DNA of 64,000 bases from positions 2,039,501 to 2,103,500 of the forward strand of contig NZ_CP040098.1 of NCBI RefSeq assembly GCF_005377625.1. Reading direction: 5' to 3'. The stretch's first letter is position 1. The number at the start of each line of letters is the position of its first letter. This document shows positions 14,809-47,396 of this stretch, piece by piece. The position numbers and the translations under genes are program-made. The notes beneath the pieces were generated by a model, which saw only the letters and a list, made by a program, of their open reading frames with translations, was not told the DNA's origin and searched no databases. Origin of the DNA: Desulfoglaeba alkanexedens ALDC. Lineage in GTDB: Bacteria > Desulfobacterota > Syntrophobacteria > Syntrophobacterales > DSM-9756.

Positions 14809-14948
14809 GGGTGCAGAACTTTTGCTTCTTGTTCCCAAGCTGGAGCTTGGGAACGAGAGGAAACGGAGCTGATGCGCTTGCTGCTTCAAGGCCATCTGGA
14901 TCTACCTCAGAGGGTCACCCTGGATGTCGTTCTAAAAGATCCGCACCC
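14809..14948. repeat. Dispersed element family B, short copy
   Basis: The copy is bounded by GGGTGCAGAACTTTT (14809-14823) and AAAAGATCCGCACCC (14934-14948), a 15-bp terminal inverted repeat with two mismatches. Inside is the palindrome GTTCCCAAGCT-N2-AGCTTGGGAAC, then sequence also present, inverted, at 60200-60285 and 61445-61530. It is non-coding. No clear target duplication was seen. Confidence 0.8.
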
Positions 14949-31571: not shown

Positions 31572-31599
31572 TTGACAAGGGGTCCCGTCTCATTATAAT
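31572..31599 (+). promoter_or_regulatory. Strong sigma70 promoter of sat
   Basis: TTGACA (31572-31577), a 16-bp spacer and TATAAT (31594-31599) match both consensus hexamers perfectly. Expected transcription start is about 31606, giving a ~75-nt leader before the sat ATG. It is the best promoter in the window and fits the very high expression of sat in sulfate reducers. Confidence 0.88.
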
Positions 31600-31680: not shown

Positions 31681-32913
31681 ATGTCGAAGCTCGTACCTCC
31701 GCACGGAAAAGAAAGAAAGCTCAAACCCTTGTTGCTTGAAGGAGGAGCCCTTGCGGCTGAGAAGCAGAAAGCCGAAACCTTGAAAAAGGTTCCCATCACC
31801 AGTCGGGAAGCGTCGGATTTGATCATGCTCGGCATCGGGGCCTTCACGCCGCTGGAAGGTTTCATGGGCTACGACGACTGGAAAGGCGTGTGTGACAAGT
31901 ACCTCATGGCCGACGGGACCTTCTGGCCCATTCCCATTACGGTTTCTGCGGACAAGGATTTGGCCGACAGCATCGGTGCCAACGAGGAAGTGGCTCTCTT
32001 CGACACGGAGAATAACGAAATCCTCGGCACGATGAAGGTCACTGAAAAGTACAAGATCGACAAAGAGTACGAGTGCAAGGCGGTTTTCTGGACCAACGAC
32101 GCCGAAGGGCACCCGGGCGTGGCGAAGGTGATGGCTCAGAAGGAGATCAACCTGGCCGGTCCGGTGAAGGTCATCAGCGAAAGCTTCTATCCCACGCGGT
32201 TCAAGGAAATTTATCAGCGTCCCGCGGAAGCCCGCAAGATGTTCGACGAAAAGGGCTGGAAGACGGTCGCGGCCCTTCAGCTCCGGAACCCCATGCACCG
32301 CAGCCACGAATACCTGGCCAAGATCGCCATCGAAGTGTGTGACGGGCTCTACATCCACCAGTTGGTCGGGAAGCTCAAAGCCGGCGATATTCCGGCGGAC
32401 GTCCGCGTGAAGGCCATCCAGGTTTTGGTGGACAACTACTTCGTGAAGGACACGGTTATCCAGGGCGGTTACCCGGCGGAGATGCGTTACGCGGGACCAC
32501 GTGAAGCGCTCCTTCACGCCGTTTTCCGCCAGAACTACGGCTGCAGCCACCTGATCGTCGGCCGAGACCACGCGGGCGTGGGCGACTATTACGGCCCATT
32601 CGACGCGCAGAAGATCTTCGATGAGATTCCGGAAGGCGCGCTGGAGCTTCAGCCGCTCAAGATCGACTGGACCTTCTACTGCCACAAGTGCCTGGGCATG
32701 GCGTCCATGAGGACCTGCCCGCACGGCAAGGAAGACCGCTTGCTGCTTTCGGGCACCATGGTGCGGAAGACCCTTTCGGAAGGTGGGGAGCTGCCGAAGG
32801 AATTTTCCCGGCCGGAGGTGGTGAAGGTTCTCCAGGAATACTACCAGAGCCTGGAAGAGAAGGTGGAGATCAAGCTGCACGGCGCCGCCACCGGAGATGC
32901 CCTCAAGAAATAG
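31681..32913 (+). CDS. sat: Sulfate adenylyltransferase (dissimilatory)
   Basis: ATP sulfurylase activating sulfate to adenosine 5'-phosphosulfate in the cytoplasm, 410 aa. The active-site motif is [17 protein letters not shown] (QxRNPxHxxH, ~200), followed by [14 protein letters not shown] (GRDHAG, ~300). A zinc-binding Cys set, [16 protein letters not shown] (~337-348), is typical of prokaryotic dissimilatory enzymes, and the single-chain form lacks an APS kinase domain. The start follows AAGGAGAAGGGTC. It has its own consensus promoter and lies upstream of aprBA. Confidence 0.97.
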
Positions 32914-32976: not shown

Positions 32977-33080
32977 CAGTCTCAGGAAAGGAGGTGCAAG
33001 GCGAGCTTCCGCAGCGGGGATTTGAGTGTACGGAAGACTTTCGTTGGATGTGAGGAGTGCTAACCTTAGGAGGTGGAACA

Positions 33081-33527
33081 ATGCCAAGTTATGTGATTCT
33101 GGAAAAGTGCGACGGCTGCAAGGGGCAAGACAAGACGGCTTGCATGTACATCTGCCCCAATGATCTTATGGTTTTGGACAAGGAAAAGATGAAGGCTTAC
33201 AATCGTGCTCCCGAAATGTGCTGGGAGTGCTACAACTGCGTGAAGATTTGTCCTCAGCAGGCCATCGACGTGCGCGCCTATGCCGACTTCGTTCCCATGG
33301 GTGCCTCCGTTGTGCCTCTGCGCGGTTCGGAAGACATCATGTGGACGGTCAAGTTCCGTTCCGGCCAGGTCAAGCGGTTCAAGTTCCCCATTCGGACGAC
33401 GCCGGAAGGCCAGGCCAAGCCTTGGCCGGATGAGTGGAGCACGGGAACCGAAGATCTGAAGAGCCCGGTGTTGTGCACCGAACCGGCTTCGACTCTGGCT
33501 CCTCAACTTCCCACCTTAAAGAAGTAA
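33081..33527 (+). CDS. aprB: Adenylylsulfate reductase beta subunit
   Basis: Fe-S subunit passing electrons to AprA, 148 aa. Two [4Fe-4S] motifs: CDGCKGQDKTACMYICP, a long CX2CX8CX3C-type spacing, and CWECYNCVKICPQQAI (CX2CX2CX3C). The C-terminal tail that wraps AprA is present (DEWSTGTEDLKSPVL). ATG 33081 has the RBS AGGAGGTGG. It precedes aprA by 19 bp. Reducing equivalents are expected from the Qmo proteins encoded downstream. Confidence 0.97.
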   Translation: MPSYVILEKCDGCKGQDKTACMYICPNDLMVLDKEKMKAYNRAPEMCWECYNCVKICPQQAIDVRAYADFVPMGASVVPLRGSEDIMWTVKFRSGQVKRFKFPIRTTPEGQAKPWPDEWSTGTEDLKSPVLCTEPASTLAPQLPTLKK

Positions 33528-33546: not shown

Positions 33547-35460
33547 ATGAAACCTTCCGATTTCGAAACTGTACGCGTCGACACCGATCTTCTGATTCTG
33601 GGCGGCGGTATGACCGCCTGCGGTGCTGCCTTTGAGGCCGCCTACTGGGCCAAGAAGCACGGCCTGAAGGTGACCGTGGTGGACAAGGCCGCCATCGACC
33701 GTTCGGGCGCCGTCGCCATGGGTCTTTCAGCCATTAACCAGTACGTCGGTTACGGCAAGGGCCAGAACACGGTGGAAGACTACGTGAAGTACGTCCGCCA
33801 GGACCTCATGGGCATTTCCCGCGAAGACCTGGTCTACGATATCGCGCGGCACGTGGATTCGTCCGTGCACCTGTTCGAAAAGTGGGGCCTTCCTATCTGG
33901 AAAGACGAACAGGGGGAATACGTCCATGAAGGCCGTTGGCAGCTCATGATCAACGGTGAATCCTACAAGGTGATCGTGGCGGAAGCCGCGAAGAACGCTC
34001 TGGCCACTATGGGCGACAAGGCCGAGATCTATGAGCGTGTGTTCATCGTGGAACCGCTCATGGACGGCAACAAGTGTGTCGGCGCCGTAGGCTTCAGCGT
34101 CCGCGAAAACAAGTTCTACGTCTTCACCGCCAAGGCCACCGTCGCCTGCATGGGCGGCGCGGTGCATGTGTTCCGTCCGCGGTCCGTGGGTGAAGGCCTC
34201 GGCCGTGCGTGGTATCCGCCGTGGAACAGCGGTTCGAGCGCTTATTTCACCATCCGGGCCGGTGCCGAAATGACCTGCCAGGAAGTGCGGTTCATCCCTG
34301 TTCGGTTCAAGGATGGTTACGGTCCGGTCGGTGCGTGGTTCCTCCTTTTCAAGTCCCGTGCCACCAATGCCATGGGCGGGGAATACATGGTGGAACGCGC
34401 CGGCGAACTGCCCAAATGGGCGCCTTACGGCACCGGCAAGCCCATTCCTGCCAACCTGCGTAACTGGTTGGGTATGGAAGACGTCATGGCAGGCAAGGGC
34501 CCCATCTACATGAGGACGGAAGAGGCCATCGCCAACCTGGCCGCCGCCTACAAGGACGATCCCAAGGCTTTCAAGAAGAAAATGAAGGAACTGGAAAGCG
34601 AAGCCTGGGAAGACTTCCTCGACATGACCATCAGCCAGGCGCTCCTGTGGGCCGGTATGAACATTCAGCCGGAAGAGAGGTCGTCTGAAATCGCTGCGGC
34701 CGAACCGTACTTCATCGGTTCGCACTCCGGCGCCTCCGGTGCCTGGGTCTGCGGTCCGGAAGACTTGATGCCGGCCGAATACAAGAAGCAGTGGGAAGCC
34801 ATCGGTGTGTACAACCACATGACGACGGTTCCGGCGCTCTTCACCGCCGGTGACGGCGCGGGAGCTTCGAGCCACAAGTTCTCGTCCGGTTCCCACGCGG
34901 AAGGCCGGATTGCGGCCAAGGGCGCCATCGCCTACATTCTGGACCACAACCAGGCTCCCAAGGTCGACGACGCCCAGGTCGCAAAGCTGAAGGAACGGAT
35001 CCTGGCTCCTGTGGGCCGGTTCGAACAGTTTGCGGCCATGTCCAGTGACCCCGACATCAACCCCAACTTCATGAAGCCGAAGATGTTCATGTTCAGGCTC
35101 CAGAAGATCATGGATGAATACTGCGCCGGCGTGTCGGCTCAGTTCACCACCAACAAGCACCTCCTGGAACGCGGGCTGGAACTGCTCGGCATGCTGAAGG
35201 AAGACGCGGAGAAGCTGGCGGCAGAAGACCTGCACGAGCTGATGCGGTGTTGGGAGAACGTGCATCGCATGTGGATCGCCGAAAGCCATCTGCGTCACGT
35301 CATGTTCCGTGAAGAAAGCCGTTGGCCGGGCTACTACTTCCGCGCCGACTACCCGGACATGGACGAAAAGAACTGGAGGGTGTTCGTCAATTCCGTGTGG
35401 AATCCGCAGACCGGTGAATGGACCGTGAAGAAGGTTCCCGTGGTCAACCTGCCGGTCTAA
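33547..35460 (+). CDS. aprA: Adenylylsulfate reductase alpha subunit
   Basis: FAD catalytic subunit reducing APS to sulfite and AMP, 637 aa. The FAD Rossmann motif is LILGGGMTACGAAFEAAYW near the start, followed by VVDKAAIDRSGAVAMGLSAIN. Active-site regions include ISREDLVYDIARHVDSS, CPRSVGEG-like FRPRSVGEGLGRAWYPPW, and SHSGASGAWVCGPEDLMPAEY. The length is a little under the ~660 aa of Desulfovibrio-type enzymes. The start follows GAAGGAGGTGACCGC. A strong terminator follows. Confidence 0.97.
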   Translation: MKPSDFETVRVDTDLLILGGGMTACGAAFEAAYWAKKHGLKVTVVDKAAIDRSGAVAMGLSAINQYVGYGKGQNTVEDYVKYVRQDLMGISREDLVYDIARHVDSSVHLFEKWGLPIWKDEQGEYVHEGRWQLMINGESYKVIVAEAAKNALATMGDKAEIYERVFIVEPLMDGNKCVGAVGFSVRENKFYVFTAKATVACMGGAVHVFRPRSVGEGLGRAWYPPWNSGSSAYFTIRAGAEMTCQEVRFIPVRFKDGYGPVGAWFLLFKSRATNAMGGEYMVERAGELPKWAPYGTGKPIPANLRNWLGMEDVMAGKGPIYMRTEEAIANLAAAYKDDPKAFKKKMKELESEAWEDFLDMTISQALLWAGMNIQPEERSSEIAAAEPYFIGSHSGASGAWVCGPEDLMPAEYKKQWEAIGVYNHMTTVPALFTAGDGAGASSHKFSSGSHAEGRIAAKGAIAYILDHNQAPKVDDAQVAKLKERILAPVGRFEQFAAMSSDPDINPNFMKPKMFMFRLQKIMDEYCAGVSAQFTTNKHLLERGLELLGMLKEDAEKLAAEDLHELMRCWENVHRMWIAESHLRHVMFREESRWPGYYFRADYPDMDEKNWRVFVNSVWNPQTGEWTVKKVPVVNLPV

Positions 35461-35479
35461 GGTGATGTTCTGACCGTGA

Positions 35480-35516
35480 AGCCTCCGGGCGCCTGGCGCC
35501 TGGGGGCTTTTTTTTG
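35480..35516 (+). terminator. Rho-independent terminator after aprA
   Basis: A GC-rich stem, GCCTCCGGGCGCC facing GGCGCCTGGGGGC with a very small loop, is followed by eight T residues, 20 bp past the aprA stop. It ends the sat/aprBA transcript, so qmoAB probably has its own promoter in 35517-35791. Confidence 0.85.
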
Positions 35517-35791: not shown

Positions 35792-37060
35792 ATGGCAGAA
35801 GCGGTCAATGGCAATGGTAGCGTGTTGGTGGTCGGAGGCGGCATGAGCGGGTTGAGCGCTGCGCTGGAGACCGCCGAAGCGGGGCGGCAGGTCTACATCG
35901 TCGAAAAAGAACCTTATCTGGGGGGTCGGGTCGCCCGGATGAACAAGTATTTTCCCAAGTTGTGCCCCCCGAACTGCGGCCTTGAAATCAATTTCCGCCG
36001 GATCAAAGCGAATCCACTGGTGCGGTTTTTCACAATGGCGGCGGTGACCCGGATCGAGGGAACGGCCGGAAATTTCGATGTTACAGTGAAAATCGCACCC
36101 CGCTATGTCAATGAAAGGTGCACGGGCTGCGGCTTGTGCGCGGAGGCGGCGGAAACGGAAATCCCGAATCCCTTCAATTACGGGCTGGATAAGGTCAAAG
36201 CGGCGTACCTGCCGCATGACTTCGCCTTTCCCATGCGGTACGTGCTGGCTCCCGAGGTCATCGGGACACCCGAAGCGGAGAAGATCAAGGCGGCCTGCCC
36301 GTACGACGCCATCGAACTGGACATGGTGCCCAAGGAATTCGAGCTCAAGGTGGGTGCCATCGTTTGGGCCACGGGTTGGGAACCCTACAGCGCGGAAAGG
36401 ATCGCTTACTACGGTTTCGGAAAGTACAAGAACGTGGTCACCAACGTGATTCTGGAGCGGCTGGCGTCCCCCAACGGTCCTACGGGCGGGCGGATTGTTC
36501 GGCCGTCGGACGGAGCGGACGTGAAAAACGTCGCTTTCGTGCAATGTGCCGGATCGAGGGACGAAAATCACCTTCCGTACTGTTCCGGCGTGTGCTGCCT
36601 CGCGTCGTTGAAGCAGGCGACCTACCTCCTGGAACAGGACCCCGAAGCGCGGGCGACGATCTTCTACATCGATATTCGAGCGCTGGGGAAGTTCGAGGAG
36701 TTTTATACGAAGGTCCAGAAGGATGAACGCGTTCGCCTCATCAAGGGAAAAGCCGGTGAAATCCTGGAAGATCCGGCGACGGGACTCGTGACCGTCCAGG
36801 TCGAAGACCAAGCCACAGGGAAGATCCTCAAGGAGCCTTTCGACCTGGTGGTGCTGGCCACCGGCATGGTACCGAGCACCGCGGCTGAAAAAGTGCCGGC
36901 GGCCGTGGCCTACGATGATTACGGTTTTATTCTGTCTGAAAGCGGTGTCCCCGGCATCGTCGGTGCGGGCTGCGTGAAACGACCGGTGGATGTGGCCACC
37001 AGCGTGCAGGATGCGACAGCGGCGGCTCTGAAGGCGATTCAGGCGACGGTGAGGAGGTGA
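35792..37060 (+). CDS. qmoA: Quinone-interacting membrane-bound oxidoreductase subunit A
   Basis: Soluble FAD protein of the HdrA type, 422 aa, expected to relay electrons between QmoB/the partner protein and AprBA. The dinucleotide fold is SVLVVGGGMSGLSAALETAE near the N-terminus, followed by VEKEPYLGGRVARMNKYFPK with LCPPNCGLE. A [4Fe-4S]-like Cys set is partly present: CTGCGLCAEAAE, with fewer Cys than a full ferredoxin motif. HdrA-type signature FVQCAGSRDENHLPYCSGVCC is at ~250. Close spacing to qmoB indicates co-transcription. Confidence 0.95.
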   Translation: MAEAVNGNGSVLVVGGGMSGLSAALETAEAGRQVYIVEKEPYLGGRVARMNKYFPKLCPPNCGLEINFRRIKANPLVRFFTMAAVTRIEGTAGNFDVTVKIAPRYVNERCTGCGLCAEAAETEIPNPFNYGLDKVKAAYLPHDFAFPMRYVLAPEVIGTPEAEKIKAACPYDAIELDMVPKEFELKVGAIVWATGWEPYSAERIAYYGFGKYKNVVTNVILERLASPNGPTGGRIVRPSDGADVKNVAFVQCAGSRDENHLPYCSGVCCLASLKQATYLLEQDPEARATIFYIDIRALGKFEEFYTKVQKDERVRLIKGKAGEILEDPATGLVTVQVEDQATGKILKEPFDLVVLATGMVPSTAAEKVPAAVAYDDYGFILSESGVPGIVGAGCVKRPVDVATSVQDATAAALKAIQATVRR

Positions 37061-37065
37061 TTTCA

Positions 37066-39285
37066 ATGGAAAAGAAGATCGGTGCCTACATTTGCACGGG
37101 TTGTGGCATCGGAGAAGCGCTCGACATCGAAGCGCTTTCGAAGGTGGCGACCACCGAGTACAAGATTCCCATCTGCCGGCGGCACGCGATGCTTTGCAGT
37201 GCGGAAGGGACTGCACTCATCCGGGCCGACATGGAAGCCGAAGGGGTGAACACGGCGGTGATTGCGGCCTGTTCGCCTCGGGTCATGGCCGATGTCTTCG
37301 ATTTCGGTTGTGACAAGGTGGTGGAGCGAGTGAACCTGCGGGAGCAGGTGGTGTGGGCGCATCCCGCCGGGGACGAGGATACGCAGATGCTCGCCGAGGA
37401 TCAGCTGCGCATGGGGATCGTCAAGGCCAGGGAAATGGTTCCCCCGGAACCCTTCCAGGGAGAAAACCTGAGCAAGCGGATCTTGGTGGTGGGCGGCGGC
37501 CTTGCCGGCCTGACGGCTGCGAAGGAAACCGCATCGGCCGGGTATGAGGTGGTGCTGGTGGAAAAGGCCGATGCGCTGGGCGGGTACCTGCGGAATGTGT
37601 ACAAGCTGCCGCCGTCCAGTCCGCCCTACGAATCCTTGGAGACACCGGACCTGGACGGCCCGGTGAAGGCGGTGGTCGAACATCCGAAGATCAAAGTCTA
37701 TACAGGGGCTACGGTCAGGAAGATCAGCGGGGCGCCCTGTATGTTCGATGCGAAGATCGGCGCCAACGGCAGCGAGGTCGAGGAACGAGTGGGGGCCGTG
37801 GTCCTGGCTACGGGTTCGGTGCCGTACGACCCGACCAGACTGGAAGATCTCGGCTACGGGAAATCGGCGGATGTTATCACGGCGGATCAATTGGAAGTCA
37901 TGTTCAAGGAAGGTAACGTTAAGCGTCCCTCCAATGGGGGGCCGGTGGACGCTGTGGCGTTCATCCTGTGTGCCGGATCGCGCGATCCGAAGCACCTGCC
38001 CTATTGTTCGGCGGCCTGCTGCGTGGAATCTCTCAAGCAGGCCAAGTACTTCAAGGAAGCCAACCCCGAAACGCCCGTCTATATCTTCTACAAGGACATC
38101 CGCGCCCACGGGACCTACGAACTGCTCTACAAGCAGCTTCAGAAGGACGGGGTGATTTTCGTCCGAGGAACCGTGACCGGCGTGGATGACGACGGGACGG
38201 GAGGCCTGGTGGTCTCGGCGGAAGACCAGCTCACCGGGGCTCCGGTTGTTTCGGAAAGCGTGGGACTCGTGGTGCTCGCCACCGGGATGGTGTCCACCGC
38301 CGCCCTCGGTAAGTCCTTCAAGGCCGTTACGCCCAAAGAAGGCGAAGACGAACCCGAGGTCCCTGAAGACACGATCCTGGCGTCCAACCTGCTCAACCTC
38401 GATTACCGCCAGGGTCCGGAAATCCCGGCGCTGAAGTACGGTTTTCCCGATTCCCACTTCATCTGCTTCCCCTACGAATCCCGTCGAACCGGCATCTACC
38501 CCGCCGGAACCGTGCGGGCGCCCATGGACTATGCCCGGGCGGTGGAAGACGCCACCGGAGCGGCCCTCAAGGCCATCCAGTGCGTAGAAATGAGCGCTCA
38601 GGGGAAGGCGGTACACCCAAGGGCGGGGGATCTCAGCTACCCGGAATTTTTCATGCAGCGGTGCACCCAGTGCAAGCGCTGTACGGAAGAATGCCCCTTC
38701 GGAGCCATCGACGAGGACGAAAAAGGCAATCCGCTTCCCAATCCCACCCGGTGCCGTCGGTGCGGCGTGTGCATGGGGGCCTGCCCGGAACGGATCATCT
38801 CTTTCAAGAACTATTCCGTGGGCATGGTGGGCAACATGATCAAGAACATCGAAGTGCCCGAAGAGGATGAGGAAAAGCCGCGCATCCTGGTGCTCGCTTG
38901 CGAAAACGATGCCTACCCGGCGCTCGACATGGTGGGCATTCACCGCCTTACCTACAATCCCTGGGTCCGCGTGATTCCGGTTCGCTGCCTCGGTTCCATG
39001 AACCTGATCTGGATCGCCGACGCCCTTTCCAAGGGGATTGACGGCGTGCTGCTCCTGGGCTGCCGGTACGGCGACGATTACCAGTGTCACTTCATCAAAG
39101 GCAGCGAACTGGCCAACATACGTATGACCAAGATCAAGGAAACGCTTGATCGTCTGGTACTGGAGTCCGACCGGGTGCGCCTGGAGCAGATTTCCATTGC
39201 GGATTATCCGCAGCTCCCGAAAATCCTGGACGAATTCGCCGATAATTTGGCAAACCTCGGCCCCAACCCCTACAAGGGCTTTTAG
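37066..39285 (+). CDS. qmoB: Quinone-interacting oxidoreductase subunit B (HdrA-MvhD-like)
   Basis: Fe-S flavoprotein of 739 aa. N-terminal YICTGCGIGEALDIEAL and CRRHAMLCSAEG are followed by a Rossmann fold ILVVGGGLAGLTAAKETASA (~residue 140) and FILCAGSRDPKHLPYCSAACC. Two ferredoxin motifs, CTQCKRCTEECPFGAID and CRRCGVCMGACPERII (~530-580), precede a C-terminal MvhD-like domain with LACENDAYPALDM, VRCLGSMNLIWIADAL and LLGCRYGDDYQC. ATG 37066 with GAGGAGG 8 bases upstream is preferred over GTG 37057. MvhD-type domains usually meet hydrogenase or electron-donor partners. Confidence 0.95.
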   Translation: MEKKIGAYICTGCGIGEALDIEALSKVATTEYKIPICRRHAMLCSAEGTALIRADMEAEGVNTAVIAACSPRVMADVFDFGCDKVVERVNLREQVVWAHPAGDEDTQMLAEDQLRMGIVKAREMVPPEPFQGENLSKRILVVGGGLAGLTAAKETASAGYEVVLVEKADALGGYLRNVYKLPPSSPPYESLETPDLDGPVKAVVEHPKIKVYTGATVRKISGAPCMFDAKIGANGSEVEERVGAVVLATGSVPYDPTRLEDLGYGKSADVITADQLEVMFKEGNVKRPSNGGPVDAVAFILCAGSRDPKHLPYCSAACCVESLKQAKYFKEANPETPVYIFYKDIRAHGTYELLYKQLQKDGVIFVRGTVTGVDDDGTGGLVVSAEDQLTGAPVVSESVGLVVLATGMVSTAALGKSFKAVTPKEGEDEPEVPEDTILASNLLNLDYRQGPEIPALKYGFPDSHFICFPYESRRTGIYPAGTVRAPMDYARAVEDATGAALKAIQCVEMSAQGKAVHPRAGDLSYPEFFMQRCTQCKRCTEECPFGAIDEDEKGNPLPNPTRCRRCGVCMGACPERIISFKNYSVGMVGNMIKNIEVPEEDEEKPRILVLACENDAYPALDMVGIHRLTYNPWVRVIPVRCLGSMNLIWIADALSKGIDGVLLLGCRYGDDYQCHFIKGSELANIRMTKIKETLDRLVLESDRVRLEQISIADYPQLPKILDEFADNLANLGPNPYKGF

Positions 39286-39309
39286 CAACGCGAGCGTGAA
39301 GGGAGAAGG

Positions 39310-40476
39310 ATGATGGAACCGAAATACGTGTCCATGGAGATGCGGGATTACCTCATCGGCATGGGAGCCGAAACGCTCAACTGGTGCATGCAGTGCGGAC
39401 TATGTACCAACCTCTGCCCCTGGCGGCTGGTTCCCGGAGAAATCAGCGAAAAGTTCAACATCCGGTACATGCAGCGCCTGGGACAGATGGGCATGGAAGG
39501 GTTTGAAGACGAGGACGTGCTGTTTGCCTGCACCACCTGCGGCATGTGCCAAACCAACTGCCCGCGCGGCGTGAAGATCATCGACAACGTGCGGGGCATG
39601 CGGGCGAGTATCGTGGGAGCGGGGATGGCGCCGGCGAATCTGAGGCCGATCTTGGGGAGCGCCCATGCCAACGGCAATCCCTGGTCCGGACCCCGAGAAA
39701 AACGCACTGCGTGGCAGGAGGGCTTGGACGTCCCTCCTTTCGGCGCCGATACTGAATACTTCCTCTTCGTGTGTTGCCATTCCTGCTACGATCAACGAAG
39801 CACCAAGGTGGCTCAAAGCATTGTAAAGCTGCTCAAGGCGGCGGGTGTGAGTTTCGGCGTGATCGGGAATGAAGAAAGCTGCTGCGGGGAAAGCATGCGA
39901 AAGCTGGGCGACGAGGAGCTTTTCCAGAAGCTGGCTCAGTCGAACATCGAGCTGTTCAACGGGAAAGGGGTGAAGAAGATCATCACCACGTCCCCGCACT
40001 GCTACTGGACGTTCACCAACGAATATCCGGAAATGGGCGGACATTGGGAAGTCATCCATTACACGCAGTTACTGAGCCGGCTTATGGCGGACGGCAAGCT
40101 CAAGGTGAAGAAGGGTTTCGAAAAGAAGACGGCGTACCACGATCCCTGCTATCTGGGCCGGCACAGCCAGGTTTACGATGCCCCCAGGGAGCTTCTGGAA
40201 CGGGTGGCCGGAAAAGGCACGGTCGAGCTCTCCCGAAACCGGGAATTGAGCCTTTGCTGCGCCGGAGGCGGCGGGCGGATTTGGGCCGAAGTGCCAATGG
40301 GGGAACGTTTCGGAGAGCTGCGGGTGATCGATGCGTTGGAGAAGGGAGCCGAGGTGCTCACAACGGCTTGTCCCTACTGTCTGAACATGTTGATTGACGC
40401 GTGCAACAGCTTGAATAAAGAGGAGGAACTCCAGATCGTCGAACTGTCCGAAATCCTGGCGGCGAACCTGGAATGA
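39310..40476 (+). CDS. HdrD-like (HdrC-HdrB fused) Fe-S protein in the qmoC position
   Basis: 388 aa and fully hydrophilic. The N-terminal HdrC-type part has CMQCGLCTNLCPW and CTTCGMCQTNCPRG, two [4Fe-4S] sites (~26-90). The rest is HdrB-type with two CCG regions: FVCCHSCYDQ...SCCGES...SPHCYW (~155-236), and HDPCYLGRH...LCCAGGGGRIW...CPYCLNML (~277-360). QmoC has a similar HdrC-like start but then six TM helices with heme b; none is present here. It is probably the electron-transfer partner of QmoAB. In Gram-positive sulfate reducers qmoC is replaced by hdrBC; here the two are fused. Confidence 0.9.
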   Translation: MMEPKYVSMEMRDYLIGMGAETLNWCMQCGLCTNLCPWRLVPGEISEKFNIRYMQRLGQMGMEGFEDEDVLFACTTCGMCQTNCPRGVKIIDNVRGMRASIVGAGMAPANLRPILGSAHANGNPWSGPREKRTAWQEGLDVPPFGADTEYFLFVCCHSCYDQRSTKVAQSIVKLLKAAGVSFGVIGNEESCCGESMRKLGDEELFQKLAQSNIELFNGKGVKKIITTSPHCYWTFTNEYPEMGGHWEVIHYTQLLSRLMADGKLKVKKGFEKKTAYHDPCYLGRHSQVYDAPRELLERVAGKGTVELSRNRELSLCCAGGGGRIWAEVPMGERFGELRVIDALEKGAEVLTTACPYCLNMLIDACNSLNKEEELQIVELSEILAANLE

Positions 40477-40599
40477 AGCTTCGACGGCCGCCGGCCGCGG
40501 CGGGAAGAGCCTTCGTGCGGCCGGCGGCATAGGATCCCGGCGGGGTGCCGTGCCCCGCCATTTGTTTGTTTTCACCTGACCCTGCAAGGATACCTGGTT

Positions 40600-40872
40600 A
40601 TGGCGACTACGCTCGAAGCCCTGAAGGCCGCTCGGACCGATTACTTCCGAGCGCACTGGGAAAACGAAGAGCTCATCATGGAACCGCACTGCGCGTGCGG
40701 CGAAGAGTTGGATGAAGACTATTACTGCGGGAGCTGCCGAAGAACGTGCAATTGCCGGTTCGTTCTCTGTGAAGATGCTCGAAGCCTGGAGGTGATGCAG
40801 AAGTTCATCCACGGAAATCCCGATTTTCGTGACTTCCGGGCCGATGTGCTGGCTGGTGGGGTGGAGGATTAG
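40600..40872 (+). CDS. Small Cys-rich hypothetical protein downstream of qmo
   Basis: Not recognised. 90 aa with a seven-Cys cluster, CACGEELDEDYYCGSC RRTCNC...FVLC, resembling a metal-binding ribbon. The rest is acidic and helical (MQKFIHGNPDFRDFRADVL). It follows the HdrD-like gene by 123 bp and is only 3 bp before the YkgJ-family gene, so it is in the same unit as that gene. A role in metal or Fe-S handling is an inference from the Cys pattern and context. Confidence 0.7.
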   Translation: MATTLEALKAARTDYFRAHWENEELIMEPHCACGEELDEDYYCGSCRRTCNCRFVLCEDARSLEVMQKFIHGNPDFRDFRADVLAGGVED

Positions 40873-40875
40873 TCC

Positions 40876-41598
40876 ATGAACGAGCATTCGGGAAACAAAC
40901 AGCCGGTGGAACTTAGCGCCGAAAGCCCCTTGCGGTTTGCCTGTCACGCCGGCCTTCCCTGCTACACCCAATGCTGCCGGGACGTGAACATCTACCTCAC
41001 CCCGTACGACGTCCTTCGGCTGAGGCGGGCGACGAAGCTATCCTCGCGAGCGTTTCTGGACCGTTACACCCGTCACTTCCTGGCCAAGGTTACCCACATC
41101 CCCGTGGTGCAACTGGCCATGAACCCGGATACCCTCTATTGTCCATTCGTGACCGAGGACGGGTGCCGGGTTTACGAAGACCGACCTTGGGCCTGCCGGA
41201 TGTTTCCGCTGGATCTCGCCGGGCCCCCGGGCCGGTATCGACTCATCCGGGGAAACGACCGTTGCCTGGGGCTGCTGGAAAAGGACGCGTGGACAGCCGG
41301 CCGATGGCTGGAGTCCCAGGGGGTTGGGCCGTACATGCGCATGGAAGAAGAATTTCAGGCGGTCATGCCGGCGGGTTTCGAACCGGGACAGCGCTTGGAC
41401 GCGGGCCTGGGGAAGATCCTTTTCCTGGCTTACGATCTGGACCGCTTCGCCAGGATGGTGGGCGACCGGCGCTTCCGGTCCTTTTACGGTGTGGACGACG
41501 AAGTCCTGAACCAGCTCCAGGAGGACGACGAAGCATTGCTGCGTCTGGCCTTCCGCTACATCCGGAGCCAGATGGAAGAACTGATCCGCTTGGTGTGA
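40876..41598 (+). CDS. YkgJ-family cysteine cluster protein, copy 1
   Basis: 240 aa. The YkgJ/Fe-S oxidoreductase-type Cys pattern is visible: FACHAGLPCYTQCCRDVNIYL near residue 20, then LYCPFVTEDGCRVYEDRPWACRMFPL at ~90-115 and a later CLGLL. These families are annotated as zinc- or iron-chelating; the biochemical role is unknown. It has a tandem paralog immediately downstream with the same Cys spacing. It may serve Fe-S assembly for the Apr/Qmo proteins, but this is speculative. Confidence 0.85.
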   Translation: MNEHSGNKQPVELSAESPLRFACHAGLPCYTQCCRDVNIYLTPYDVLRLRRATKLSSRAFLDRYTRHFLAKVTHIPVVQLAMNPDTLYCPFVTEDGCRVYEDRPWACRMFPLDLAGPPGRYRLIRGNDRCLGLLEKDAWTAGRWLESQGVGPYMRMEEEFQAVMPAGFEPGQRLDAGLGKILFLAYDLDRFARMVGDRRFRSFYGVDDEVLNQLQEDDEALLRLAFRYIRSQMEELIRLV

Positions 41599-41621
41599 AA
41601 AGTCGCCTCCAAGGAGAACAA

Positions 41622-42407
41622 ATGAGCCTTCAACATTCCGCCCCTTCGTCTATCCAGGAAAAGCTGGTTCCCCTGGGCGAAGGTCGTTTCCGGTTCGCCT
41701 GCCATCCGGGTGTCCCCTGTTTCACGGAATGCTGCCGCGAATTGAACCTTTTCCTGACGCCCTATGACATCGTTCGGATGAAACGGCATCTGGAAATGAC
41801 GGCCGAAGCCTTCATCGACACCTATTGCGACGTCCGGTTCGAGGAGGGGCGGCAGGTTCCGATGGTCTATCTTGCCATGAGGGACAACGAACGGAAGACG
41901 TGCCCCTTTGTTTCGGCAAGGGGCTGCGAGATTTACGACGATCGGCCTTCGGCCTGCCGGACCTATCCGCTGGCCCGCGCTTCGCGCAAACACAAGCTTC
42001 ACGGGGTGTTCCTGGAAAATTATTTCCTGCTCAAGGAAGACCACTGCCGGGGTTTTGAAGAGGATCGTTCATGGTCGATAGAAGAATGGATCCAGAACCA
42101 GGGGCTGGCGCCTTACCACGAAATGAACAACCTCTGGATGGAGATCGTGACGGATGCGCGGCTGAAACGGGCCCTGGCGGAACGGCAGCTGCAGGTGTTC
42201 TACCTGGGTTCTTACGACTTGGATCGTTTCCGTTCCTTCGTGTTCGGCAGTCGCTTTCTGGCGCTGTTTGACCTGCCCGAAACCGAGGTGGAACCGCTGC
42301 GAAAAGACGACGAAGCCCTGCTTCGGCTAGCCTTCCGCTGGCTTCGTTTCTCGCTCTTAAACGACGATTCCCTTCGACTCCGCCAACCGGCTGCCGCTTC
42401 GCCCTGA
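41622..42407 (+). CDS. YkgJ-family cysteine cluster protein, copy 2
   Basis: 261 aa, paralog of the preceding gene: FACHPGVPCFTECCRELNLFL and TCPFVSARGCEIYDDRPSAC match copy 1 position for position. The C-terminal YDLDRFRSFVFGSRFLALF repeats copy 1's YDLDRFARMVGDRRFRSFY. ATG 41622 follows AAGGAGAACA; a longer frame from 40971 runs through copy 1 and is not real. It is 23 bp from copy 1. Function unknown; the duplication suggests two related substrates or a two-part complex. Confidence 0.85.
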   Translation: MSLQHSAPSSIQEKLVPLGEGRFRFACHPGVPCFTECCRELNLFLTPYDIVRMKRHLEMTAEAFIDTYCDVRFEEGRQVPMVYLAMRDNERKTCPFVSARGCEIYDDRPSACRTYPLARASRKHKLHGVFLENYFLLKEDHCRGFEEDRSWSIEEWIQNQGLAPYHEMNNLWMEIVTDARLKRALAERQLQVFYLGSYDLDRFRSFVFGSRFLALFDLPETEVEPLRKDDEALLRLAFRWLRFSLLNDDSLRLRQPAAASP

Positions 42408-46225: not shown

Positions 46226-46697
46226 CTAGGCGACACTTTCATGGGTAGGTCTTTGCTCCGTGTGTTTGGCTTTGGACCTCAGGCTCTGTTTGAGGCGGTA
46301 ACTTTCCCAGCTGCAGTGGATGATATGGGCTTTGTGGGTGAGACGGTCTAACAGGGCGGCCGTCATAGTTGGATCCCCAAACACCTGGGTCCAATCGGCA
46401 AACCCAAGGTTCGTGGTGATGATCACGGAGCCTTTCTCGTGGCGTTCCGCCAAGACCTGGAACAACAACTCCGAACCTTCTTTGGAAAACGGAATGTAGG
46501 CCAGTTCATCCAGGATCAGCAGATCGTAGCGAACGTATTTTTGGATCAAACGCTGCAGTGCTCTTTGTTCTCTGGCCTCCACCAGTTCGTTGACCAGCCC
46601 GTAGCAGGTCACAAACCGGGTCCGATGGTTTTGCCGGCAGGCCTCGATCCCCAGGGCTGTCGCCATATGGGTCTTTCCGTTATGGAAAGCTTTCCAT
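46226..46697 (-). pseudogene. IstB helper ATPase, 5'-truncated
   Basis: Encodes the C-terminal two-thirds of IstB: a remnant of Walker A (NGKTHMATALG), Walker B LLILDELAYIPFSKEGSEL, sensor region VIITTNLGFADWTQVFGDPTM, and RLTHKAHIIHCSWESYR. About 100 N-terminal residues and the first part of the P-loop are missing at the deletion junction (46679-46698), so it is unlikely to function. Confidence 0.85.
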
Positions 46698-47396
46698 AAC
46701 GATGAAACGCGCATCCAAACTGTAATAGGCCTTAAACTTCGAAAAGGCTTCCTGTTGCTGACGATCTTTGCCCCGCATGACCTTGCGAACCGCTGCTGTC
46801 AAGTTGTCGTAGATCAGAATCGGGAAAACTCCCCCGAAAAACGCATACGCTTGCTCATGGCCATCGAAAAACACCTGTTGCCGTTCGCAGGGATAGAACC
46901 GCACAAAGTGCTTGCCCGAATACTTGCTGCGCATGCAAAAAAACTTCAGACGCTGCGCCTCGCCCCCTATCAGCGCGATCGCACCGCCCCAATCCACCTC
47001 CCCTTCATAGCCCGCTTCGGGATCACAGGGTATGAACGTGCAGGATCCCGCCATCCCAAGCTGCATCTTGGCCAGCCTCACATACCGGCGCACCGTGGAT
47101 TCACTGCCTTTAAAGCCCTGTTCTTCAATCAACCGATGGTAGATCCGACGCGCCGTATGCCTTTGATTGCAAGGTTTATCCCGGTCGCCCTCCAACCACC
47201 CGTCGATCACCGCCAGATGCTCCCCCAAGGCCGGAAATGCCTGATGTTCACGCTCCCTGTATCCCCAAGGTTCGCCCCGAATGGCCTTCTTCACCGTATT
47301 ACGGCAATGACCTGTCAGACGTGCCAGCTCGCTGATGCTCTTCCCGTACACTCGGTACCCCGTCCTGATCAGTTCGTACTGGTCCATCTTGAGCAC
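46680..47396 (-). pseudogene. IstA transposase, 3'-truncated
   Basis: 238 codons of about 500 remain. The N-terminal helix-turn-helix (ISELARLTGHCRNTVKKAI) and the first two catalytic Asp regions, GEVDWGGA (D1) and ILIYDNLTAAVRKV (D2), are present. The DDE Glu and the C-terminal half are lost, with out-of-frame codons (VMESFP) after ARFI at the junction. Not functional. Confidence 0.87.

Follow-up and report, generated by a model that had tools for sequence, protein, structure and literature searches.

Genes for QmoA and QmoB linked to a gene for an Fe–S oxidoreductase, HdrD, have been described in Desulfosporosinus, Desulfomonile tiedjei and Syntrophobacter fumaroxidans, the last printed as Syntrophomonas (PMC4148979), and QmoAB–HdrD has been named for some Deltaproteobacteria (PMC10504309). 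In Desulfotomaculum, QmoAB likewise has a soluble Hdr-type partner encoded near sat-aprBA (PMC4148979; PMC4759654). The adenosine 5′-phosphosulfate (APS) reductase/Qmo unit of Syntrophobacterales seemingly came from Gram-positives, and two Qmo systems have been noted in both S. fumaroxidans and Desulfovirgula (PMC4148979); for the former, another qmoAB has been reported at a separate site in addition to qmoABC (Sfum_1285-87; PMC3570798). The present analysis concerns a locus of this kind in a stretch of 64,000 nucleotides, hereafter the window, from Desulfoglaeba alkanexedens ALDC (G000:C1:2039501-2103500; the source genome is one contig of 3,365,583 bases). Reading-frame and domain searches gave the gene order sat, aprB, aprA, qmoA, qmoB, followed in the place of qmoC by an open reading frame (ORF) of 388 amino acids, referred to here as hdrD.

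The QmoAB–HdrD arrangement is already in print and the window genome is one more member. In both, qmoA and qmoB are followed by a fused soluble protein of the HdrC–HdrB type and are linked to APS reductase (aprBA), and a second Qmo system is present in the genome, as in S. fumaroxidans; no essential difference separates the window locus from QmoAB–HdrD as presented in PMC4148979 and PMC10504309. The Desulfotomaculum system differs in that its HdrB and HdrC are separate proteins (PMC4148979; PMC4759654). With QmoABC the window locus shares the QmoA/QmoB architecture and the aprBA neighbourhood, but its third subunit lacks the membrane cytochrome b part and carries two added CCG domains. On the strength of sequence comparison and a predicted structure, we propose, with a probability of about two in three, that QmoAB–HdrD offers electrons a soluble way into APS reduction alongside QmoABC. 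This bears on how APS reductase is supplied with electrons in organisms that lack QmoC. Three results given below, namely the count across the order, the interpretation of the cluster ligands and the neighbourhood of electron-transfer flavoprotein (ETF) genes, were not met in the literature searched, which consisted mostly of papers open without subscription, and may have been published.

The third subunit

The three genes lie on the plus strand, in the order given by the original prediction. The first, qmoA (35792..37060), encodes an HdrA-like flavoprotein (HdrA-type match, 2e-108) and is the HdrD-linked paralogue (tree clade 100/100). Its end is overlapped by 4 bases by the start of qmoB (37057..39285), the product of which is HdrA-like and carries an FlpD/MvhD domain at residues 610-735 (PF02662, 1.2e-41). 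The hdrD gene (39310..40476) follows; its product consists of a Fer4_8 domain at residues 24-88 and two CCG stretches, the first incomplete and the second complete. No 19-residue window of the protein reaches a Kyte–Doolittle mean of 1.6, the highest being 1.47, which agrees with the earlier claim that a transmembrane segment is lacking. The qmoC model covers residues 9-117 only, with 34.6 bits against a cut-off of 300. Accordingly, the window locus shows no membrane cytochrome b part of QmoC, nor does the 388-residue protein have the membrane region with b heme found in EtfD.

The CCG motif of HdrB consists of C, CC and CxxC, and two complete motifs bind two noncubane clusters. The 388-residue protein had been predicted to contain such a complete pair. 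This proved right for the second motif (C280, C316, C317, C354, C357) and wrong for the first, which is made up of C156, C191, C192 and C231, with S228 replacing the first Cys of CxxC; the two complete motifs of a catalytic HdrB are thus not found. S228, H230, C156, C191, C192 and the five cysteines of the second motif are invariant in all 49 homologues compared.

By sequence, the nearest solved relative is EtfD of M. smegmatis (9ojn; 6.7e-72, residues 61-383), the soluble part of which has its counterparts here: two cubane-type ferredoxin motifs, two CCG domains and the capping His, with two ligand differences in the first CCG domain. In the alignment, C156, C191, C192, S228, H230 and C231 correspond to EtfD residues 503, 538, 539, 581, 583 and 584, and the cysteines of the second CCG motif align with the second ligand set of EtfD. 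There, a linear [3Fe-4S] cluster is held by Cys503, 538, 581 and 584, with Thr539 at the place of a Cys in Hdr, and a noncubane [4Fe-4S] cluster is held by Cys637, 672, 673, 709 and 712 together with His583, which renders it non-catalytic (PMC13083937). Our reading of the ligand pattern combines this alignment, the conservation across the 49 rows and the ligands named in that paper. Since a Ser occupies a Cys place and the invariant H230 falls on the capping His of EtfD, electron relay over a capped cluster seems likelier for HdrD than disulfide chemistry; the ligand pattern makes the chemistry of HdrB appear less likely for the window protein.

A structure model built from the 49 homologues reached a mean pLDDT (predicted local distance difference test) of 92.0 and supersedes an earlier, poor model from 14 close sequences (64.1). 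VIA-align placed this predicted model closest to EtfD 9ojn, over the whole length of the protein (Z 34.2; 367 residues, 2.2 Å, 35% identity, residues 10-388), followed by LutA (Z 22.5) and, in third rank, by the Helicobacter hypothetical protein 3kwl (Z 20.7, 4.4 Å, 10% identity). EtfD itself also overlays an AlphaFold model of HdrDE (PMC13083937). The fold so predicted corresponds to the soluble half of enzymes of the EtfD/HdrDE type.

The second Qmo locus and distribution in the order

The absence of QmoC, as originally claimed, holds for the window locus and not for the genome. A qmoA-qmoB-qmoC set lies on the minus strand at about 660.3-665.3 kb of G000:C1, 1.4 Mb from the window locus; genome-wide loss of QmoC is therefore ruled out. 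A qmoC gene located elsewhere and co-expressed had been named as something that would speak against the original prediction; a qmoC-type gene is present, which answers to the first half of this, and it comes with qmoAB paralogues of its own. Between the two loci, QmoA is 65% and QmoB 64% identical. Against the qmoC model, the distant QmoC aligns across positions 4-357 of 360 with 203.8 bits, below the cut-off of 300, and the protein has seven hydrophobic windows, two of which overlap each other. In a sample of the phylum, QmoC scored above the cut-off in 122 of 395 genomes, with 364-537 bits among the matches listed; the genomes of the window's order (15 listed of 16) score 201.7-213.6 bits, and about a dozen rows from other families lie near 200 bits, again among the matches listed. 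Judged by these scores, of about 200 bits as against 364-537, the QmoC of the order is a member of a distant QmoC group. PMC10504309 names a 'type II' QmoC, to which this group might correspond.

The distribution of both loci was followed in 55 genomes of the class, 39 of them, including the window genome, from the window's order (families f1-f3); many are drafts, so that single absences carry little weight. An orthologue of hdrD with at least 70% identity is found in 35 of the 39 (partial in G037 and G048; missing in G033, G039, G040 and G041). In the 34 that have it besides the window genome the identity is 71-87%, which rules out a chance or misread frame. Among the matches listed, those from the remaining 16 genomes of the class include none better than 1e-109 or above 45%. 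QmoC with at least 57% identity likewise occurs in 35 order genomes, all but G033, G036, G039 and G040, and the hdrD orthologue and the distant QmoC occur together in 34 of 39. At 1e-60, aprA was detected in 37 of the 39 genomes, a few of which gave it in fragments; in L140 (G044, genus g14) it is of a different type, 55% identical. G039 and G040 are without aprA, without qmoA or qmoB at 1e-120 and without a QmoC better than 1e-27, and their closest HdrD relative is 40% identical. When ten loci of the order besides that of the window were examined, a comparison that the original prediction had called for, qmoA1 and hdrD were present in all ten, with qmoB1 between them in eight; the gene order is thus kept in most of the order loci examined.

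Outside the order, a non-exhaustive scan of named genomes with two short peptide patterns yielded 68 loci. Desulfosporosinus and its relatives have qmoA-qmoB-hdrD with a protein 65-69% identical to that of the window, so that the statement that Gram-positives use separate HdrB and HdrC covers only part of them. None of seven Desulfosporosinus/Acididesulfobacillus genomes matches qmoC at 1e-20, which argues that QmoAB–HdrD can stand without QmoC. Desulfomonile-type loci have qmoAB-hdrD at 58-63% identity, with no aprBA within the stretch examined; of four genomes of this type that were searched, three encode a QmoC scoring 430-445 bits at another site next to aprBA, and in the fourth (G443) the sole match is short and weak.

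In the HdrD tree, the 11 rows of the order form one clade (100/100) within a set of 20 rows (100/99) that also holds the Bacillota, Desulfovirgula-type and one Deltaproteobacteria-labelled row; the Desulfomonile rows stand apart from it. This set and the Bacillota homologues of 65-69% identity rule out that hdrD is an invention of the order. In the QmoA tree, the HdrD-linked rows of the order again form one clade (100/100) without joining the Bacillota rows, and the deep forks are unsettled; QmoA therefore gives no sign of transfer of the whole unit. The QmoC-linked QmoA rows of the order cluster with four rows of other families (16 rows, 100/100).

In five loci examined, the HdrD homologue has no close qmoAB. 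Among their ten neighbour proteins, radical SAM proteins occur in three of the five and a nickel-insertion gene in two, and no neighbour is common to all five. Four further loci (L144, L145, L146 and L147) contain QmoC-like and HdrD-like parts in a single frame of 768-845 amino acids beside HdrA-like genes, possibly a fused HdrED-type protein.

Proposed electron route and points against it

In the proposed route, HdrD would pass electrons across two cubane 4Fe-4S clusters and the CCG-bound clusters to QmoA/QmoB and from there to AprBA. The Ser at one ligand position and the capping-type His suggest that it would act as a wire and not as a disulfide reductase. A single APS reductase (aprA has one match in the whole genome) would then have two entries: menaquinol through the QmoABC of the other locus, and a cytoplasmic donor, for which ETF may be the most interesting candidate, through the soluble system of the window. 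The soluble Hdr-like complex envisaged by the original prediction finds support in the order-wide synteny and in the predicted fold. In 34 of 39 order genomes, Qmo systems of both the membrane and the soluble type are kept for one APS reductase, so that a comparison of the two is possible within one organism.

Several observations weigh against a soluble entry of this kind. The cluster types are those suggested by homology, and the ligand pattern is not that of EtfD: C192 stands where EtfD has Thr539, and S228 where it has Cys581. C231, which by its spacing takes the place of the bridging Cys81 of Hdr, is kept in 47 of the 49 homologues and thus leaves some doubt, with room for Hdr-like chemistry. 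The HdrB chains gave Z values of 19.4-19.9 over 230-234 residues, which are not like for like with that of EtfD because the two halves form a single chain in EtfD and separate chains (B and C) in Hdr, while the identities, 18-20% as against 35%, are; an HdrDE structure was absent among the fold matches. G031 (L142) and G042 (L143), two metagenome-assembled genomes (MAGs) from the order with no sister relation in the trees, have no qmoB1 between qmoA1 and hdrD, which are spaced by 244 and 177 bases, respectively, and the sole qmoB that each yields at 1e-120 belongs to the other type; the trio is therefore not fixed. Finally, aprBA-qmoAB-hdrD-qmoC forms one run in Desulfovirgula (L218, L224) and in an Armatimonadetes MAG (L255). 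As hdrD directly precedes the QmoC-type gene there, HdrD and QmoC might share one complex and not be alternatives.

Alternative sources of electrons

A tentative possibility is that ETF acts as a shuttle. HdrD would be the docking half of an EtfD-type enzyme, and electrons would pass from reduced ETF through HdrD and QmoA/QmoB to APS reductase, ETF being loaded by acyl-CoA dehydrogenases or by menaquinol via membrane EtfD. That HdrD would be an EtfD lacking the membrane part, and that it would dock ETF and connect it with QmoAB to feed APS reductase, is an analogy that we regard as rather doubtful. If true, electrons from acyl-CoA oxidation, or from menaquinol via membrane EtfD, would reach APS without QmoC. 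The likeness to EtfD and the etfBA neighbours seen in some Bacillota do supply a named donor candidate that is cheap to test.

EtfD is the best whole-length match of HdrD both by sequence and by predicted fold, and a search of the window organism's own genome with HdrD gave no second match better than 1.8e-9. Among the 68 loci, etfB-etfA lies directly 3′ of hdrD on the same strand in seven (tblastn, 1e-10): six of the 19 Bacillota loci (L210, L211, L212, L214, L216 and L252) and a Syntrophaceae MAG (L245), the 7.3 kb stretch of which lacks qmoAB. Where a stretch stops shortly past hdrD, as in some of the 68, etfBA would have gone unseen. A membrane EtfD-like gene comes after etfBA in five of the six Bacillota loci, the stretch of L216 ending before that place. 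L211 (Peptococcaceae CEB3) may serve as an illustration: hdrD is followed by ETF beta, ETF alpha, a 688-aa protein that combines a membrane part resembling nitrate reductase gamma with Fer4_8 and CCG, and an H+-pyrophosphatase. By its gene number, HdrF1 (gene 0461) of Acididesulfobacillus probably corresponds to the membrane protein encoded next to etfBA in L212; the paper on this organism has HdrF1 feed QmoAB/HdrBC from quinones, and its main text makes no mention of Etf. In Desulfobacterium autotrophicum, hdrF beside etfBA had already been noted (PMC2702500).

However, of those among the 68 loci that come from the window's order, none has hdrD followed by etfBA; one of them, L197, has divergent and more distant etf genes upstream. 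Etf genes are not seen in 13 of the 19 Bacillota loci, the stretch of at least L228 being incomplete. ETF was not found at 1e-6 in 954,907 of the 3,365,583 bases of the window genome (28%), and none lies in the window. A membrane partner was not seen either, since a membrane-EtfD query retrieved only weak relatives (24-27%) from this genome. Furthermore, likeness to EtfD is common to HdrDE-type enzymes that do not use ETF. For the window organism, the link to ETF is one of analogy only.

Alternatively, HdrD might link the QmoC encoded at the other locus to QmoAB, the whole forming one menaquinol-oxidising system like HdrD–HdrE, which we consider unlikely. The Desulfovirgula-type run described above would fit such a shared membrane subunit, as would QmoC-like and HdrD-like parts in one open frame of 629-845 amino acids in G007, G015, G034, G035 and G042; moreover, QmoC proteins from the order and from Desulfovirgula reach similar scores on the qmoC model (186-214 bits). 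Yet the QmoC locus carries its own qmoAB, and the seven Desulfosporosinus-type genomes have HdrD with no QmoC match. G041 has QmoC without an hdrD orthologue and G036 the reverse, both being drafts.

Least probable of all would be a soluble bifurcating or confurcating QmoAB–HdrD, in which ferredoxin or H2 would be used jointly with another donor through the flavins of QmoA and QmoB: confurcation by Qmo has been proposed (PMC10553843, PMC6037941) and the four Cys of the FlpD/MvhD domain of QmoB are kept in 9 of 9 order rows, but the same four occur in 21 of 21 canonical QmoB rows, so that the domain does not mark out the window locus. In addition, none of the 11 HdrD-linked QmoA1 rows of the order keeps the four ferredoxin-type cysteines 120, 157, 162 and 165, which are present in six Desulfosporosinus-type rows (one a Deltaproteobacteria-labelled MAG). 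Given their absence, the QmoA1 of the order has probably lost one of two ferredoxin-type clusters. A sequence search of the PDB with QmoA at 1e-20 returned five HdrA and one other flavoprotein, and no QmoA entry.

Flanking genes and signals

Upstream of qmoA, all on the plus strand, lie sat for ATP sulfurylase (31681..32913; PF01747, 2e-89, with PRK04149 above cut-off), aprB for the beta subunit of APS reductase (33057..33527; TIGR02060, 209 bits, above cut-off) and aprA for its alpha subunit (33547..35460; TIGR02061, 934 bits, above cut-off). The aprB model starts at residue 9, which is an in-frame ATG at 33081 and possibly the true start. In two family f3 genomes (L286, L287), a distant sat-like gene (34-35% identity) stands directly 3′ of the QmoABC locus. 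A perfect promoter-like site, TTGACA-16-TATAAT (12/12), is located about 80 bases 5′ of sat (31572-31599); the region holds two such sites against a shuffle mean of 2.9, i.e. no excess. Terminator-like hairpins occur on the plus strand in the gap between aprA and qmoA (35478..35510; 15 pairs, T tail) and, weakly, 3′ of hdrD (40539..40559). Terminator-like sites show no excess either, with 10 in the region against a shuffle mean of 12.2.

Downstream of hdrD, on the same strand, are a 90-aa Cys-rich protein without a family match (40600..40872) and a YkgJ-type CxxCxxCC protein (40876..41598; PF03692, 1.5e-9), followed by a second YkgJ-type stretch (41676-42347) 37% identical to it. This trio (40600-42407) trails hdrD in eight of the ten other order loci compared, and a similar Cys-rich/YkgJ trio is found after a canonical qmoC in L290, from a different family of the class.

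Elsewhere in the window, the palindromic repeat CCAAGCTNNAGCTTGG has 12 matches at no more than one mismatch, eight of them exact, against 0.01 expected; they include positions 14835, 31220, 31393, 45676, 58680, 60289, 60530 and 61590, and there are four more. Two minus-strand ORFs at 46226-47396 resemble, by eye from the letters, IstA and IstB of the IS21 type. Outside the window, HdrA-like frames at G000:C1:1105875 and 2382340 each contain one in-frame TGA, which possibly encodes selenocysteine.

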